DNA from: Nitrospirota bacterium
GTDB lineage: Bacteria; Nitrospirota; 9FT-COMBO-42-15; HDB-SIOI813
Reading direction: 5' to 3'
NCBI GenBank assembly: GCA_016212215.1
Contig: JACRGV010000020.1
Coordinates: forward strand, 1 to 50,600
Length of the DNA stretch: 50,600 nucleotides
A program made the translations under genes and the position numbers. The notes below the pieces were generated by a model. That model was not told where the DNA came from, searched no databases, and worked only from the letters and a program-made list of their open reading frames with translations. Below are positions 10,614 through 48,775 of the stretch, piece after piece; within the stretch, counting starts at the first letter, position 1; each line of letters starts with the position of its first letter.

Positions 10614-10726
10614 TAACCCCATCCCCACCCTAACCCTCCCCTTGAAGGGGAGGGAATCTTTATCTAATATCTGACTTCTTGCTTCTTACCTCTTACTTCT
10701 GCTTACTGCTTACTGCTTACTGTTTT
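10614..10726. repeat. Composite repeat between ctpA and trxA
   Basis: 10614-10658 is a full GC-hairpin copy. 10662-10726 is a heptamer tract with CTTCTTG and repeated TTACTGC units (AGCAGTA on the minus strand). The last ctpA codons (SSKQ and TAA) are themselves repeat units. Confidence 0.8.
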
Positions 10727-12052
10727 CGGAGATATTCCCTTGAATATGTTCCATCCTTTCAACAGGTCAATAGCCCTTTGTAACTGAATATCATTTTCTT
10801 CTGATGCCTCTTCTGTTAAAGGAATATCGCCATCTTCATCTTTTGTATCATCTATCTGCTTATCTTCTTCAGATGGTACTGTCTCATTGCTGAGATGTTT
10901 TTTAAGGTCCTTCTCCCTTATATGCTTTGGAGCAGAACCATTCCCGGCTTTAGCAGTTTTGACTACAATATCAGGTGTAATCCCGGTATTCTGTATGGAA
11001 CCACCTTTTGGGGTATAGTATTTTGCAGTGGTAAGTCTCATACCGGATCCGTCACTAAGGGTAAGTACGGTTTGGACAGAGCCTTTCCCGAATGTCTGTG
11101 TACCTAAAACTACCCCTCTCCCCCAGTCCTGAAGCGCACCGGAAACAATCTCAGATGCACTGGCACTGCCTTCATTAACAATGACTACTAAAGGATAATC
11201 CGCTTTTGGAGTCTTAACTGATGACAGATATTCCTCTTTATCCCCATCCCTGCCTTTGACGGAAACTACGAGCTGACCATCTTTAAGGAATTGTTCAGAA
11301 ACCTGAACTGCAGCCTTTAATAAGCCCCCCGGATTATTTCTCAAATCAAGTACCAGAGACTTCATGTTTTCCTTCTCAAGTTTCTCCAGAGCGGCTGATA
11401 AATCTTCACCGGTTTTTTCCTGAAACTGGGTAATACGTATATACCCCACATTCCCTTCCATCATCTTCGATTTAATACTCTTTATCTTTATGATGTCCCT
11501 GACCAATGTAAATTCCAGAGGGTCTTTTTCCCCTTCCCGCACTATAGTAAGTGTTACTTTGGTGCCTTTAATGCCGCGCATCTTTTCTACAGCATCATTG
11601 AGGTTCAGGTCTTTTGTTGCCTCGCTGTCTATCTTGGATATAAAATCTCCTGCCTTGATGCCTGCACGCCATGCAGGGGTATCTTCAATCGGTGCAATAA
11701 CAACAAGTTTTTTATCTTTAAGACCTATCTGAATACCAAGGCCGCCGAACTCCCCTTTCGTATCTACCTGCATCTCCTTATAAACCTTGGGAGGCATAAA
11801 GTTCGTATGAGGGTCAAGCTCTGCAAGCATCCCCTTAATTGCTCCATATACAAGGTCCTTGGTCTTTGTTTCCTCAACATAATTTTTCTGAACCAGTGAA
11901 AGCGCCTCAGCAAATATCTTGAGGTCCTCGTAACTCTCACCCCCGAGCACCGGCGTCCCCATACCTTTTCCAAATATAAGCCACGCACCGGCAAATAGAA
12001 AAATTATTAATACTACAAATCCCCTTCTCCAGAGCCTCTTCTTGTCGTACAT
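10703..12052 (-). CDS. ctpA: Carboxy-terminal processing protease (S41 family)
   Basis: A membrane-anchored periplasmic serine protease, 449 residues. Family members trim C-termini and regulate cell-wall hydrolases. Residues about 10-28 form a signal anchor. A PDZ domain (about 95-170) contains GLGIQIGLKDKKLVV and AGIKAGDFI. The catalytic core has LRNNPGGLL, the nucleophile segment NEGSASASEIVSGAL and the general-base Lys in GTQTFGKGSVQT. An acidic C-terminal extension (about 375-430) separates the core from the end. The last residues SSKQ are encoded by a heptamer repeat. The gene follows the ftsX-envC fusion after about 53 bases; the ftsX/envC/ctpA neighbourhood is typical of cell-division operons. 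Confidence 0.96.
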   Translation of the reverse strand: MYDKKRLWRRGFVVLIIFLFAGAWLIFGKGMGTPVLGGESYEDLKIFAEALSLVQKNYVEETKTKDLVYGAIKGMLAELDPHTNFMPPKVYKEMQVDTKGEFGGLGIQIGLKDKKLVVIAPIEDTPAWRAGIKAGDFISKIDSEATKDLNLNDAVEKMRGIKGTKVTLTIVREGEKDPLEFTLVRDIIKIKSIKSKMMEGNVGYIRITQFQEKTGEDLSAALEKLEKENMKSLVLDLRNNPGGLLKAAVQVSEQFLKDGQLVVSVKGRDGDKEEYLSSVKTPKADYPLVVIVNEGSASASEIVSGALQDWGRGVVLGTQTFGKGSVQTVLTLSDGSGMRLTTAKYYTPKGGSIQNTGITPDIVVKTAKAGNGSAPKHIREKDLKKHLSNETVPSEEDKQIDDTKDEDGDIPLTEEASEENDIQLQRAIDLLKGWNIFKGISPKTVSSKQ

Positions 12053-12077: not shown

Positions 12078-12122
12078 TGTCTGTTACCTGCTTACTGCTA
12101 CCTGCTTACTGCTTACTAATAC
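12078..12122. repeat. Heptamer tract (TTACTGC type) at the ftsX-envC 3' end
   Basis: Units TTACTGC, TACCTGC and TTACTAA on the plus strand, AGCAGTA on the minus strand. The tract covers the last codons (SKQ) and the stop of the fusion gene (12106-12108). It fills most of the gap to ctpA. Confidence 0.75.
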
Positions 12123-14259
12123 TAAGCCATGGAAGCGGATCCACCGCCTGCCCATTCTGACGAAGCTCAAAATAAATACCGTCTTTCTCTGAAGAATTGC
12201 CGCTGCCTGCCACAGCAATCACCTGACCTTCCTTAACCTTACTGCCTTTTGAAACAAATAGTTTTGAGGCATGTCCGTATATGGAATAAAAGCTGTTCCC
12301 ATGATCTATTATCGTCATTAAACCATAACCTTTCAACCAATCTGCATAAGCAACGATACCATTATACACAGCCTTTACATTTTTTTCATTTCCTGCAATG
12401 ATCTCAATCCCTTTTTTAAAAACATAAGCATCAAATTCAGGGTGTTTCTGCTTACCGAATCTTGACATAACATCACCTGCAAGCGGCCATGTCAATCTAC
12501 CCTTTTCTTTTCCAATACCTGTACCGGGGCTGACAACCTTTTCACTGCTCCGTTTTCTTTCATAAGACTCAATCAGCCCCTTTAAAGCAGCGGATGCACT
12601 TTCAAGCCTTTGAAGGTCCTTTTCATACTCAGCCTTCCTGTCCTGAATACTGACAAGTTTTACGCGGCTCTCCTTAACCTCGCCCTCAATCACCTGTTTA
12701 TCTTTTTGCAGTTTCCCCTTTTCAGACACAAGCGTGTTGTGCCTCCTGTTCAACAATGACAACTGACCGTGTAACTTATCAACTTCATCTCCGAGGCCCT
12801 GCATAATCCTGTTTGTCTCGCCGATCAATTTATCTTCATACTTGGACCTGAGCATAAAGTCATGGTAATCATTTGAGGCAACAATGTTTGCCGCAAGGCC
12901 GGTATTTCTAACTGAATGACTTTTATACACATAGATAAGAAAATCTGCCATCTCTCTCTTTTTTTTTACAAGGTCAGAGGTTAATGAACTCATATCACTC
13001 TGGGTGTTTTTAATCTCTTTATCTTTCTCTTCGAGGGTCTTATGAACTTTCACCAGTTCTTTTTTTTTACTATCTAAATCCTTCTCTTTTGTCTCAATGA
13101 CCTGCTTTACCTTTTTTTCCTCAACAGCAGCCTCTTTGGATGCCTTTTTCTTTTCTTTAATCTCTTTACTTAAATCCTCTAACTTCTTCCGCTTCTGTGC
13201 AATCTCTTTCTCGATATTCTGAGCTTCAGGCTGACCTTCATGGGTGCGTCCGGATTTTGATTTTGCATAAGAAATATCAGTAACATTTAAGCACAAAATT
13301 AAAAATATAGCTACCCCCGTGTATCTCCCGCCTGCGCTTCTGCTGCCTGAGAATCCCCCGCCTGTAATTTTTCCGTTTGTAAATTTCCCTATTGATACCC
13401 AGCTCCCAAAACAACCTGTAATTATCCCTGTTGCAGGAAGCAATAACATCTCTTTAAAAGGAATAAAGGAAAATCTCAATCCTCCGAGCCATACATAAAC
13501 CGCAGGTGGAATTTTATATAAGATAAGGTTATAGACAAGCAACAACAAAATTAGTGAACAAACACCGCCGATTAAACCTAATATCCCTCCCTCTATCACA
13601 TACGGCAGTTTTTTTACGGAATCGGCATTACCTCCATACTGAATGTTTTCAAAATGCTCACGCCTTACCAGAAGGGTGAACTTAACTGTGTTGGAGATTG
13701 TTAAAAGGACTATCAGGATCATCAGGCCGCCGGAAACAACACCAATAACCCTTGCTGTAGAAATAAAAACATTAAGCCGTTCTACCCATTCTACTCCATA
13801 TTCAACTTCATTAACTGCACTTATATCTTTTAGTCTTGCTGCAAGCCTCTTGATACCTTCCGGAGTTCTTGCATCAGACTTCAGGGTTATCCTCATTGAG
13901 TCCGGGAGCGGATTTCCCTTCAGCTCCTTCACAATTTCCCTTGCATTCTCTACGTCATGGGCAAGAATCTCAAGCGCCTGGTCTTTTGGAATATAAGTAA
14001 CATTCCCTACCTCTTTAAATCCCTCTATTTCATTCTTTATGCTGTTTATTTCTTCATCAGCAAGTGCCTTATCAAAATATGCAATCACCTGCATATCCTT
14101 TTTAAGGTTTTCAACTAAATTATTTATATTATAAATTGCGAGCAGATACATGCCGAAAACAAGCAGAATAATAGAAATAATCCCAACCGCTGTGATAACA
14201 GAATGACTGTTGGACCTGATTTGATTTAAGGCTTCTTTTATGCTGTCTGAGAGATTCAC
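12106..14259 (-). CDS. ftsX-envC: Fusion of cell-division permease FtsX with an EnvC-like murein hydrolase activator
   Basis: One open frame of 717 residues joins two proteins that normally form a complex. Residues 1-295 are FtsX: TM1 21-45, a periplasmic domain 46-165, TM2 170-193, TM3 220-248, TM4 272-292. A glycine-rich, basic linker (293-313) leads to a fifth membrane segment (about 314-332) ending in an Ala-X-Ala-like DISYAKS site. Then follow a coiled coil (about 345-575) and a LytM/M23 domain (590-717). The LytM domain lacks the usual metal ligands (KKGIEI instead of HxGxD, YFELR instead of HFE), although YGHAS is kept. This fits a non-enzymatic activator such as EnvC. No internal start with a ribosome site is seen at the junction. 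FtsE, usually directly upstream, is absent here. The start is GTG; the G-rich tail of a repeat sits at ribosome-site distance. Confidence 0.92.
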   Translation of the reverse strand: MNLSDSIKEALNQIRSNSHSVITAVGIISIILLVFGMYLLAIYNINNLVENLKKDMQVIAYFDKALADEEINSIKNEIEGFKEVGNVTYIPKDQALEILAHDVENAREIVKELKGNPLPDSMRITLKSDARTPEGIKRLAARLKDISAVNEVEYGVEWVERLNVFISTARVIGVVSGGLMILIVLLTISNTVKFTLLVRREHFENIQYGGNADSVKKLPYVIEGGILGLIGGVCSLILLLLVYNLILYKIPPAVYVWLGGLRFSFIPFKEMLLLPATGIITGCFGSWVSIGKFTNGKITGGGFSGSRSAGGRYTGVAIFLILCLNVTDISYAKSKSGRTHEGQPEAQNIEKEIAQKRKKLEDLSKEIKEKKKASKEAAVEEKKVKQVIETKEKDLDSKKKELVKVHKTLEEKDKEIKNTQSDMSSLTSDLVKKKREMADFLIYVYKSHSVRNTGLAANIVASNDYHDFMLRSKYEDKLIGETNRIMQGLGDEVDKLHGQLSLLNRRHNTLVSEKGKLQKDKQVIEGEVKESRVKLVSIQDRKAEYEKDLQRLESASAALKGLIESYERKRSSEKVVSPGTGIGKEKGRLTWPLAGDVMSRFGKQKHPEFDAYVFKKGIEIIAGNEKNVKAVYNGIVAYADWLKGYGLMTIIDHGNSFYSIYGHASKLFVSKGSKVKEGQVIAVAGSGNSSEKDGIYFELRQNGQAVDPLPWLSISKQ

Positions 14260-14263
14260 GAAT

Positions 14264-14417
14264 AAACCCCATCCCCACCCTAACCCTCCCCTTGAAGGGG
14301 AGGGAACTTGCTGAGAGACTTAACCTCCCCTTGAAGGGGAGGGAATTTCATTCTTCTGACTTCTTGCTTCTTGTCTTTACCATTCACCATTCACCATTCA
14401 CCTTCTAACTTCTTACG
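14264..14417. repeat. Composite repeat between yraN and ftsX-envC
   Basis: A full GC hairpin (14264-14308), a half copy (14321-14346), then heptamers of two types: CTTCTTG/CTTCTGA and TTCACCA/TTCACCT (14350-14417). It ends about 20 bases from the yraN stop codon. Confidence 0.8.
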
Positions 14418-14434
14418 ATAGACTCTCTATGCTA

Positions 14435-14806
14435 TCACCATGAGATGTTTTCATTCAGTTCAAATGCATCTTTGAATATTTCAATATTCCCCTTGTAAAT
14501 AGATACAACATCAAACCTGCATGGTATATTATCACACTTCTTTTCTGCTATATAGCCCGCGGCTGTTTTACTTATCTTTTCTTGCTTCCGTATATCTACA
14601 GATAAAACAGGATGACCATAAGAACTCAGGTTACGCATCTTCACTTCAATAAAGACGAGTGTCCTATTCTCCTTAGCAATTATGTCAATCTCTCCAAAGC
14701 AATTTCTATAATTCTTCTCTACAATCTTATAGCCATGTTTTTCAAGATGCTCTGTTGCTAATTGCTCCCCCTGTCTCCCTTTTGCCCTGTTTTCTGATTT
14801 GGTCAT
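14435..14806 (-). CDS. yraN: YraN / UPF0102 nuclease-fold protein
   Basis: A 123-residue member of the YraN family, which has a Holliday-junction-resolvase-like endonuclease fold; its cellular role is not settled. The core GEQLATEHLEKHGYKIVEKN, CFGEIDIIAKENRTLVFIEVKMR contains the putative metal-binding Glu/Asp and the Glu-x-Lys of the nuclease motif. The start is the ATG at 14804-14806. An upstream in-frame start at 14839 would translate a repeat (RVRVGVGL) and is rejected. It sits behind rnhB, a very common pairing. Confidence 0.93.
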   Translation of the reverse strand: MTKSENRAKGRQGEQLATEHLEKHGYKIVEKNYRNCFGEIDIIAKENRTLVFIEVKMRNLSSYGHPVLSVDIRKQEKISKTAAGYIAEKKCDNIPCRFDVVSIYKGNIEIFKDAFELNENISW

Positions 14807-14816
14807 AAAGTCTAAG

Positions 14817-14850
14817 CCCACCCCCACCCTAACCCTCAAGGGGAGGGAAT
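14817..14850. repeat. Truncated GC-hairpin repeat overlapping the rnhB 3' end
   Basis: A copy with a shortened hairpin (CCCTCAAGGGGAGGG). On the minus strand it encodes the last rnhB residues (LFPPLEG) and the stop TAG, then supplies the G-rich sequence before yraN. Confidence 0.8.
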
Positions 14851-48587: not shown

Positions 48588-48775
48588 CGCAAAAAAAGCC
48601 GGACCGCCAATATAACAATAACCACACAATTATTGTCACCTCGGCTGGCTTGGTTATCCTACCGTTTAAATCCCCCCCCCTTTTTCAAAGGGGGGAATTT
48701 CAAGGAAGAAAAACATTGGATAAGCCCCGTGGCTTTGCGCCCTGCCCTCACGGACAGTTTGCCCTGATAGAAGGT
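48588..48775 (-). promoter_or_regulatory. c-di-GMP-I (GEMM) riboswitch with terminator
   Basis: On the minus strand the conserved blocks are CAGGGCAAAC (near 48767), a hairpin CTGTCC-GTGA-GGGCAG with a GNRA tetraloop, GCGCAAAGCCACGGGGCTT (48724-48742) and a 3' block AGCCGAGGTGACA (near 48634-48646). The P3-like stem pairs GGCTTATCC with GGAT and AAGCC; its loop holds a poly-C hairpin repeat (48665-48705). Downstream, the sequence AAGCC ... GGCTTTTTTT (T run complementary to 48591-48597) can form an intrinsic terminator ending about 37 bases before the start codon. AAGCC is needed in both, so aptamer and terminator compete; an ON switch is inferred. Confidence 0.85.
48665..48705. repeat. Poly-C/poly-G hairpin repeat inside the riboswitch
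   Basis: A C9 run and a G6 run flanked by AAATC/GAATTT-like ends. It is of the same type as 61-152 and 23428-23471. It occupies the variable P3 loop, leaving the conserved riboswitch blocks intact. Confidence 0.7.

Follow-up and report, generated by a model that had tools for sequence, protein, structure and literature searches.

FtsX and EnvC are normally separate cell-division proteins, of which EnvC is an activator of cell-wall enzymes and FtsX is driven by the ATPase FtsE. The extracellular domain (ECD) of Escherichia coli FtsX is the part to which EnvC binds, and in the accepted model ATP binding and hydrolysis by FtsE drive FtsX, by which EnvC is pulled out of autoinhibition. FtsX contacts FtsE through a coupling helix between transmembrane segments TM2 and TM3 (PMC11139282; PMC7468199), and the substitutions I216K and V220K in the coupling helix of pneumococcal FtsX are lethal though the protein is made (PMC7468199). 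The locus described here resembles the FtsEX-EnvC-amidase system of E. coli, Vibrio and Pseudomonas, a type VII ABC mechanotransmitter, in the FtsX fold with its ECD, the EnvC coiled coil, the dead LytM domain and the presence of an AMIN-Amidase_3 enzyme in the genome, but differs from it in that a single polypeptide is encoded, FtsE is missing and the coupling helix is degenerate. It also resembles the ftsE-ftsX-envC-ctpA clusters of other Nitrospirota, which have the same gene order (ctpA usually downstream) and homologous FtsX and EnvC, but in which ftsE, ftsX and envC are distinct genes and FtsX has an intact coupling helix.

Architecture and distribution of the FtsX-EnvC fusion

The window, that is, the whole analysed stretch of 50,600 nucleotides, is part of a Nitrospirota assembly (G000) of 2.99 Mb, for which the listed completeness is 100% and the listed contamination 2.7%. 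Two other genomes are named repeatedly below: G001, its genus mate, and G003, from another genus of the same family. The features of the locus were as follows.

10703..12052, minus strand: gene for a CtpA-type S41 protease, a conserved downstream neighbour
12106..14259, minus strand: ftsX-envC fusion gene, a single open frame for 717 amino acids with a GTG start and its stop codon at 12106-12108
12118..12498, minus strand: degenerate LytM (M23) domain of EnvC, residues 588-714 (PF01551; 4bh5, 1.9e-29)
12541..13227, minus strand: EnvC coiled coil, residues 345-573, with modelled helices at 348-451 and 465-573 (matches EnvC 6tpi/8hd0)
13263..13264, minus strand: candidate signal-peptidase site S-Y-A332/K333, small-x-Ala retained in 8/10 family members
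13273..13317, minus strand: helix 5, about residues 315-329, with invariant G..A..L.LCLN (family identity 0.78; helix in the structure model at 310-324)
13311..13313, minus strand: out-of-frame TAG at the V316-A317 junction in 10/10 genomes, possibly what is left of the stop codon that ended the ancestral ftsX
13318..13386, minus strand: Gly-rich basic linker, residues 292-314, from the alignment
13387..14259, minus strand: FtsX moiety, residues 1-291, with TM1, ECD, TM2, loop, TM3 and TM4 (TIGR00439, structure model and Foldseek)
13603..13668, minus strand: decayed FtsE-coupling helix between TM2 and TM3, residues 198-219, VRREHFENIQYGGNADSVKKLP (z -8.6 against 28 FtsX controls)
13804..14091, minus strand: FtsX ECD, residues 57-152 (PF18075, 62.5 bits)
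14260..14434, no strand: intergenic gap at the place of ftsE in seven relatives, with no ftsE remnant
14435..14839, minus strand: YraN-family gene, a conserved upstream neighbour

In the Pfam search of the 717-residue protein, FtsX_ECD was matched at residues 57-152 with a score above the cut-off and Peptidase_M23 at residues 614-708 (86.9 bits). The NCBIfam models FtsX_Gneg (TIGR00439) and EnvC PRK11637 covered residues 6-293 with 202.7 bits and residues 503-712 with 132.4 bits, respectively, the former below its full-length cut-off of 255 and the latter likewise below that of its model. An AlphaFold2 model (mean pLDDT 80) showed the FtsX part, one helix around residues 310-331, a pair of long helices and a LytM barrel. 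With Foldseek it matched E. coli FtsX 8w6i (TMt 0.82) and the LytM domain of E. coli EnvC 4bh5 (TMt 0.90); the EnvC moiety also gave matches to EnvC 6tpi and 8hd0 and to 8tzk. The FtsX moiety has the layout that marks FtsX, namely four helices and a single large ECD that follows TM1 and precedes TM2, and the EnvC moiety is modelled with a long coiled coil ahead of the C-terminal LytM domain. The fifth membrane helix proposed in the preliminary description was recovered in the model, with which the proposed topology (FtsX ending inside, the fifth helix leading EnvC outside) is also consistent. The LytM domain had been called degenerate as well, and its active-site ligands are indeed replaced: the first His by Lys616, the Asp by Glu619 and the HxH motif within 'GIYFE'. 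These replacements (K616/E619, YFE) are conserved across all ten family members, and the metal ligands of E. coli EnvC are likewise replaced. Lacking the Zn ligands, the LytM domain of the fusion is expected to have no hydrolase activity.

The arrangement of ftsX and envC was searched in 396 genomes across the phylum Nitrospirota. The fusion frame, 686-737 codons from stop to stop, was open in all ten genomes of the family, which span six genera at 50-74% identity and stem from several different sampling projects. The claim of a natural fusion therefore stands: the frame is continuous across the junction in 10/10, none of the family genomes has separate genes together with an indel or a missed stop there, and a stop lost in one single assembly is ruled out. 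In the loci read from outside the family, ftsX and envC were neighbouring but distinct genes, preceded by ftsE and in most cases followed by ctpA. Two further fusions were found in the phylum (G240 and G138), both with ftsE retained. G138 has an unfused congener, G254, so its fusion is recent and independent, and at least one of these two fusions thus arose separately. Apparent additional fusions in G060 and G269 resolved into separate ORFs once the DNA was read. G269 carries two ftsE-type loci (L120, L121), each with a full ftsE-ftsX-envC set, and two ftsE-type loci per genome were also seen in G325, G333, G369 and G379 of the same family (f26). No mention of an FtsX-EnvC fusion was found under the phrases searched in a collection of open-access papers.

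The junction and helix 5

The Gly-rich basic linker, regarded earlier as part of the fusion, is present at residues 292-314 but is confined to the window species; it is absent from the other nine fusions and was rejected as a general feature. In most family members FtsX passes almost straight into helix 5 ('GSWVSVGRYLGVAIFLFLCLN'), and the join in family members other than the window species reads 'SVGRYLGVAIF' or similar. An internal start for a separate EnvC was likewise rejected, since no ATG or GTG lies just ahead of helix 5 in the window and the lone TTG is within helix 5.

The TAG at V316-A317 lies one base beyond the codon at which FtsX of an unfused relative stops (SMGRFLK-stop), and a one-base insertion may have bypassed the old ftsX stop. 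Among 655 codon pairs, only this TAG and the TAA at L324-N325 are +1-frame stops conserved in 10/10 genomes. Codon identity at invariant residues was 0.64 at the junction versus 0.46 gene-wide, and in contrast to the conserved junction codons, synonymous sites elsewhere in the gene are near saturation (dS 1.4). It is possible that the conserved codons and stops (window 13288-13317 and the relatives) are a relic of the ftsX stop or a signal at the RNA level.

Helix 5 is apparently derived from the signal peptide of EnvC. Its identity within the family was 78%, versus 27% for the free EnvC signal peptides of another family that was matched on EnvC divergence (coiled coil 0.51, LytM 0.71), and this difference implies a lasting sequence-specific role of helix 5.

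The absence of ftsE and the state of the coupling helix

In seven of the ten fused genomes, ftsE was found directly upstream of the fusion, with scores of 400-418 bits for an FtsE profile built from these same seven sequences. The genome-wide profile search for ftsE in G000, G001 and G003 gave best hits of only 170-176 bits, the level of MacB/LolD ATPases, and a broader profile, for which every candidate was scored, agreed. The best hit in G000 had 175.6 bits, and the encoded FtsE that marks a type VII ABC FtsEX system was not found in this genome. An FtsE hidden among the MacB/LolD-like ATPases of G000 was ruled out by the score gap and the gene context. In all three genomes the contig spans the locus but ftsE is not there, nor was any remnant of it found at these three fused loci. 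With a listed completeness of 78% for G001 and 70% for G003, absence from the genome is weaker for them than absence from the locus. The preliminary description had noted that ftsE is missing from the window and had treated the fusion as one without ftsE. The absence extends to the whole genome of G000, but it is not a property of the fusion: since seven of the ten fused genomes retain ftsE directly upstream, fusion and ftsE loss are separate events. A single clade of G000/G001 and G003 was rejected by the AU test with CtpA (p 0.003), CtpA+YraN (p 0.002), the fusion protein (p 3e-6) and all genes (p 1.3e-5), and because these lineages are not sisters, the simplest account is two losses of ftsE, both later than the fusion. 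Other cases of FtsX seemingly without FtsE were discarded, in G039, G049, G068, G075 and G345 by reason of truncation of the gene by contig ends and in G143, G118 and G370 by reason of an adjoining ABC gene. Between yraN and ftsE of relatives, a conserved ORF of about 84 amino acids (MVTGINSDIEHNGKVYHVQTEDGG...) was observed (L012:3515-3766, also L005, L006, L009 and L011); it had no Pfam match and is missing beside the fusion in the window genus.

The preliminary description overlooked the main point at this locus, namely the loss of the FtsE-docking coupling helix in FtsX. In FtsX of relatives with ftsE, the motif EIExxKxxGAT of this helix is nearly invariant. It is scrambled in the window FtsX, where H, N, Y and G stand at the positions equivalent to pneumococcal E213, I216, L219 and V220, respectively; G001 has H, T, N and A at the same four positions together with a 4-residue insertion, and in G003 about 21 residues are deleted in frame, so that TM2 and TM3 are linked by a short loop in the model. 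Against 28 control FtsX sequences, some of which are cut by contig ends with their ftsE not directly seen, the z values of the helix for G000, G001 and G003 were -8.6, -6.7 and -14.7, respectively; G021, for which no FtsE was found, and G370, whose FtsX is divergent, were kept out of the controls. The helix overlaps the most decayed stretch of FtsX in the ftsE-less species (ranks 2-8 of 268 among the windows scored), and the remainder of FtsX scores like that of species with ftsE. Helix identity was 0.76 in species with ftsE versus 0.41 in those without it, and the values for ECD (0.52/0.54), coiled coil (0.54/0.56) and LytM (0.71/0.70) were unchanged. Between G000 and G001, dN/dS was 0.43 in the helix, as against 0.08 in the remainder of FtsX, 0.10 in the coiled coil and 0.07 in LytM; these estimates, rough because dS is high, place the remainder of FtsX under purifying selection.

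A third loss was found in the unfused genus g80, a member of another family, in which ftsX and envC are separate. Two of its genomes (G161 and G329) have no ftsE genome-wide, and FtsE is present in a third (G224, 330 bits). A fossil of ftsE, corresponding to 24 FtsE N-terminal residues with 58% identity (E 7e-5), lies before ftsX in the two genomes.

L142:2388-2459: 24-codon ftsE fossil before ftsX
L143:1421-1492: 24-codon ftsE fossil before ftsX

The coupling helix is the most decayed stretch of FtsX in these genomes (z -4.5 and -6.0), and g80 shows the same decay at an early stage. In families f2 and f10 FtsX has gone along with FtsE, as is usual, and they were not taken as further losses of FtsE only. 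G021 is a partial counter-example, as no FtsE was detectable and yet the coupling-helix motif is mostly kept; the z values of G021 and G370 were about -4.3 each, on an overall divergent FtsX.

Proposed mechanism and alternative explanations

The explanation preferred here, with reasonable though not high confidence, is that the FtsX-EnvC fusion was fixed in the ancestor of one family of uncultured Nitrospirota, that two independent losses of ftsE followed together with decay or deletion of the coupling helix, and that EnvC is presented to the amidase without FtsE-driven ATP mechanotransmission. FtsX helices 1-4 would anchor the fusion in the inner membrane, and helix 5 would lead the chain back out, exposing the EnvC coiled coil and LytM domain. 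The latter would be presented during division to the single AMIN-Amidase_3 cell-wall amidase encoded by G000, and this septal activator probably no longer uses ATP hydrolysis by FtsE. What the sequences themselves show is a conserved fusion, the lack of ftsE, decay specific to the coupling helix and purifying selection elsewhere; the location of the fusion, its activation of the Amidase_3 enzyme and the independence of this activation from ATP are what we infer. In the family alignment, the stretch ahead of LytM by which E. coli EnvC is restrained seems to be retained, and a release signal other than ATP hydrolysis by FtsE would thus be expected. Besides this retained stretch, the incompleteness of G001 and G003 and the coupling-helix motif of G021 count against the preferred explanation. 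So do two features of the E. coli system: amidase activation requires the ATPase activity of FtsEX (PMC7668044), and the complex contains two FtsX per EnvC (PMC7668044), whereas a 1:1 ratio is enforced in the fusion, which uncut cannot alone give 2:1.

An artefact of assembly, with a stop codon missed or ftsE left unassembled, could be suspected because the genomes are metagenome bins, incomplete in two of the three cases without ftsE; it is extremely improbable, given a frame common to ten genomes from several studies and contigs that run across the locus where ftsE is missing, and a missing contig cannot yield helix decay in the same species. Several MacB- or LolD-like ABC ATPases with 38-40% identity to the family FtsE are encoded by G000, one of which (C79) has no permease seen beside it, and such an enzyme might have replaced FtsE. 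However, two of the three best candidates adjoin MacB/Lol-type permeases, and the coupling helix would be expected to be reshaped for a new partner, yet G003 has lost it outright, so that a replacement is quite unlikely. The disappearance of this helix from three fused genomes would also suit an FtsX moiety that is a decaying relic and a mere membrane anchor for EnvC, but the low dN/dS of FtsX beyond the helix (0.08) and the EnvC-binding ECD, conserved as in species with ftsE, make this unlikely.

The fusion may also be a polyprotein in which signal peptidase cuts past helix 5 (A332), giving FtsX and free EnvC in equal amounts. The Ala-x-Ala-like site pointed out earlier exists in the form of the small-x-Ala site S-Y-A332/K; the c-region around it is 29% identical, yet eight of the ten members keep Ala at -1 and a small residue at -3, helix 5 is short and looks signal-peptide-derived, and EnvC is as a rule a soluble periplasmic protein. 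Cleavage is opposed by the loss of the Ala in G008 (VVES) and G009 (HEVE) and by the conservation of helix 5 far above that of free EnvC signal peptides in the matched family. A literature search turned up no precedent for such a polyprotein. A polyprotein is a serious possibility that we put somewhat short of even, and it is compatible, and can be combined, with the preferred sequence of fusion and subsequent ftsE loss.

More generally, it is in our estimate slightly favoured that FtsX-EnvC can become an ATPase-free amidase activator; on this reading, Nitrospirota lost ftsE on three or more occasions while retaining ftsX and envC, two of them subsequent to a fusion, and coupling-helix decay followed each loss. 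Lineages in which FtsX and EnvC are under selection and FtsE and its docking helix have been dropped constitute a natural test of the need for ATP, and equally of the suspected FtsE-independent role of FtsX. Such an essential function has been inferred for Caulobacter FtsX (PMC5607218), which is alike in having a role beyond its ATPase but differs in that ftsE is still present. The fusion also renders the FtsX:EnvC stoichiometry directly testable.

Two further elements were observed in the window. The 16-base near-palindrome CCCCTTCAAGGGGAGG, a dispersed intergenic repeat, occurs at ten sites (none expected), namely 227, 2596, 6647, 8462, 10635, 14285, 14324, 15925, 32579 and 41259, two of which lie just before the fusion gene. 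A c-di-GMP-I riboswitch aptamer was detected at 48632-48773 with 45.2 bits.
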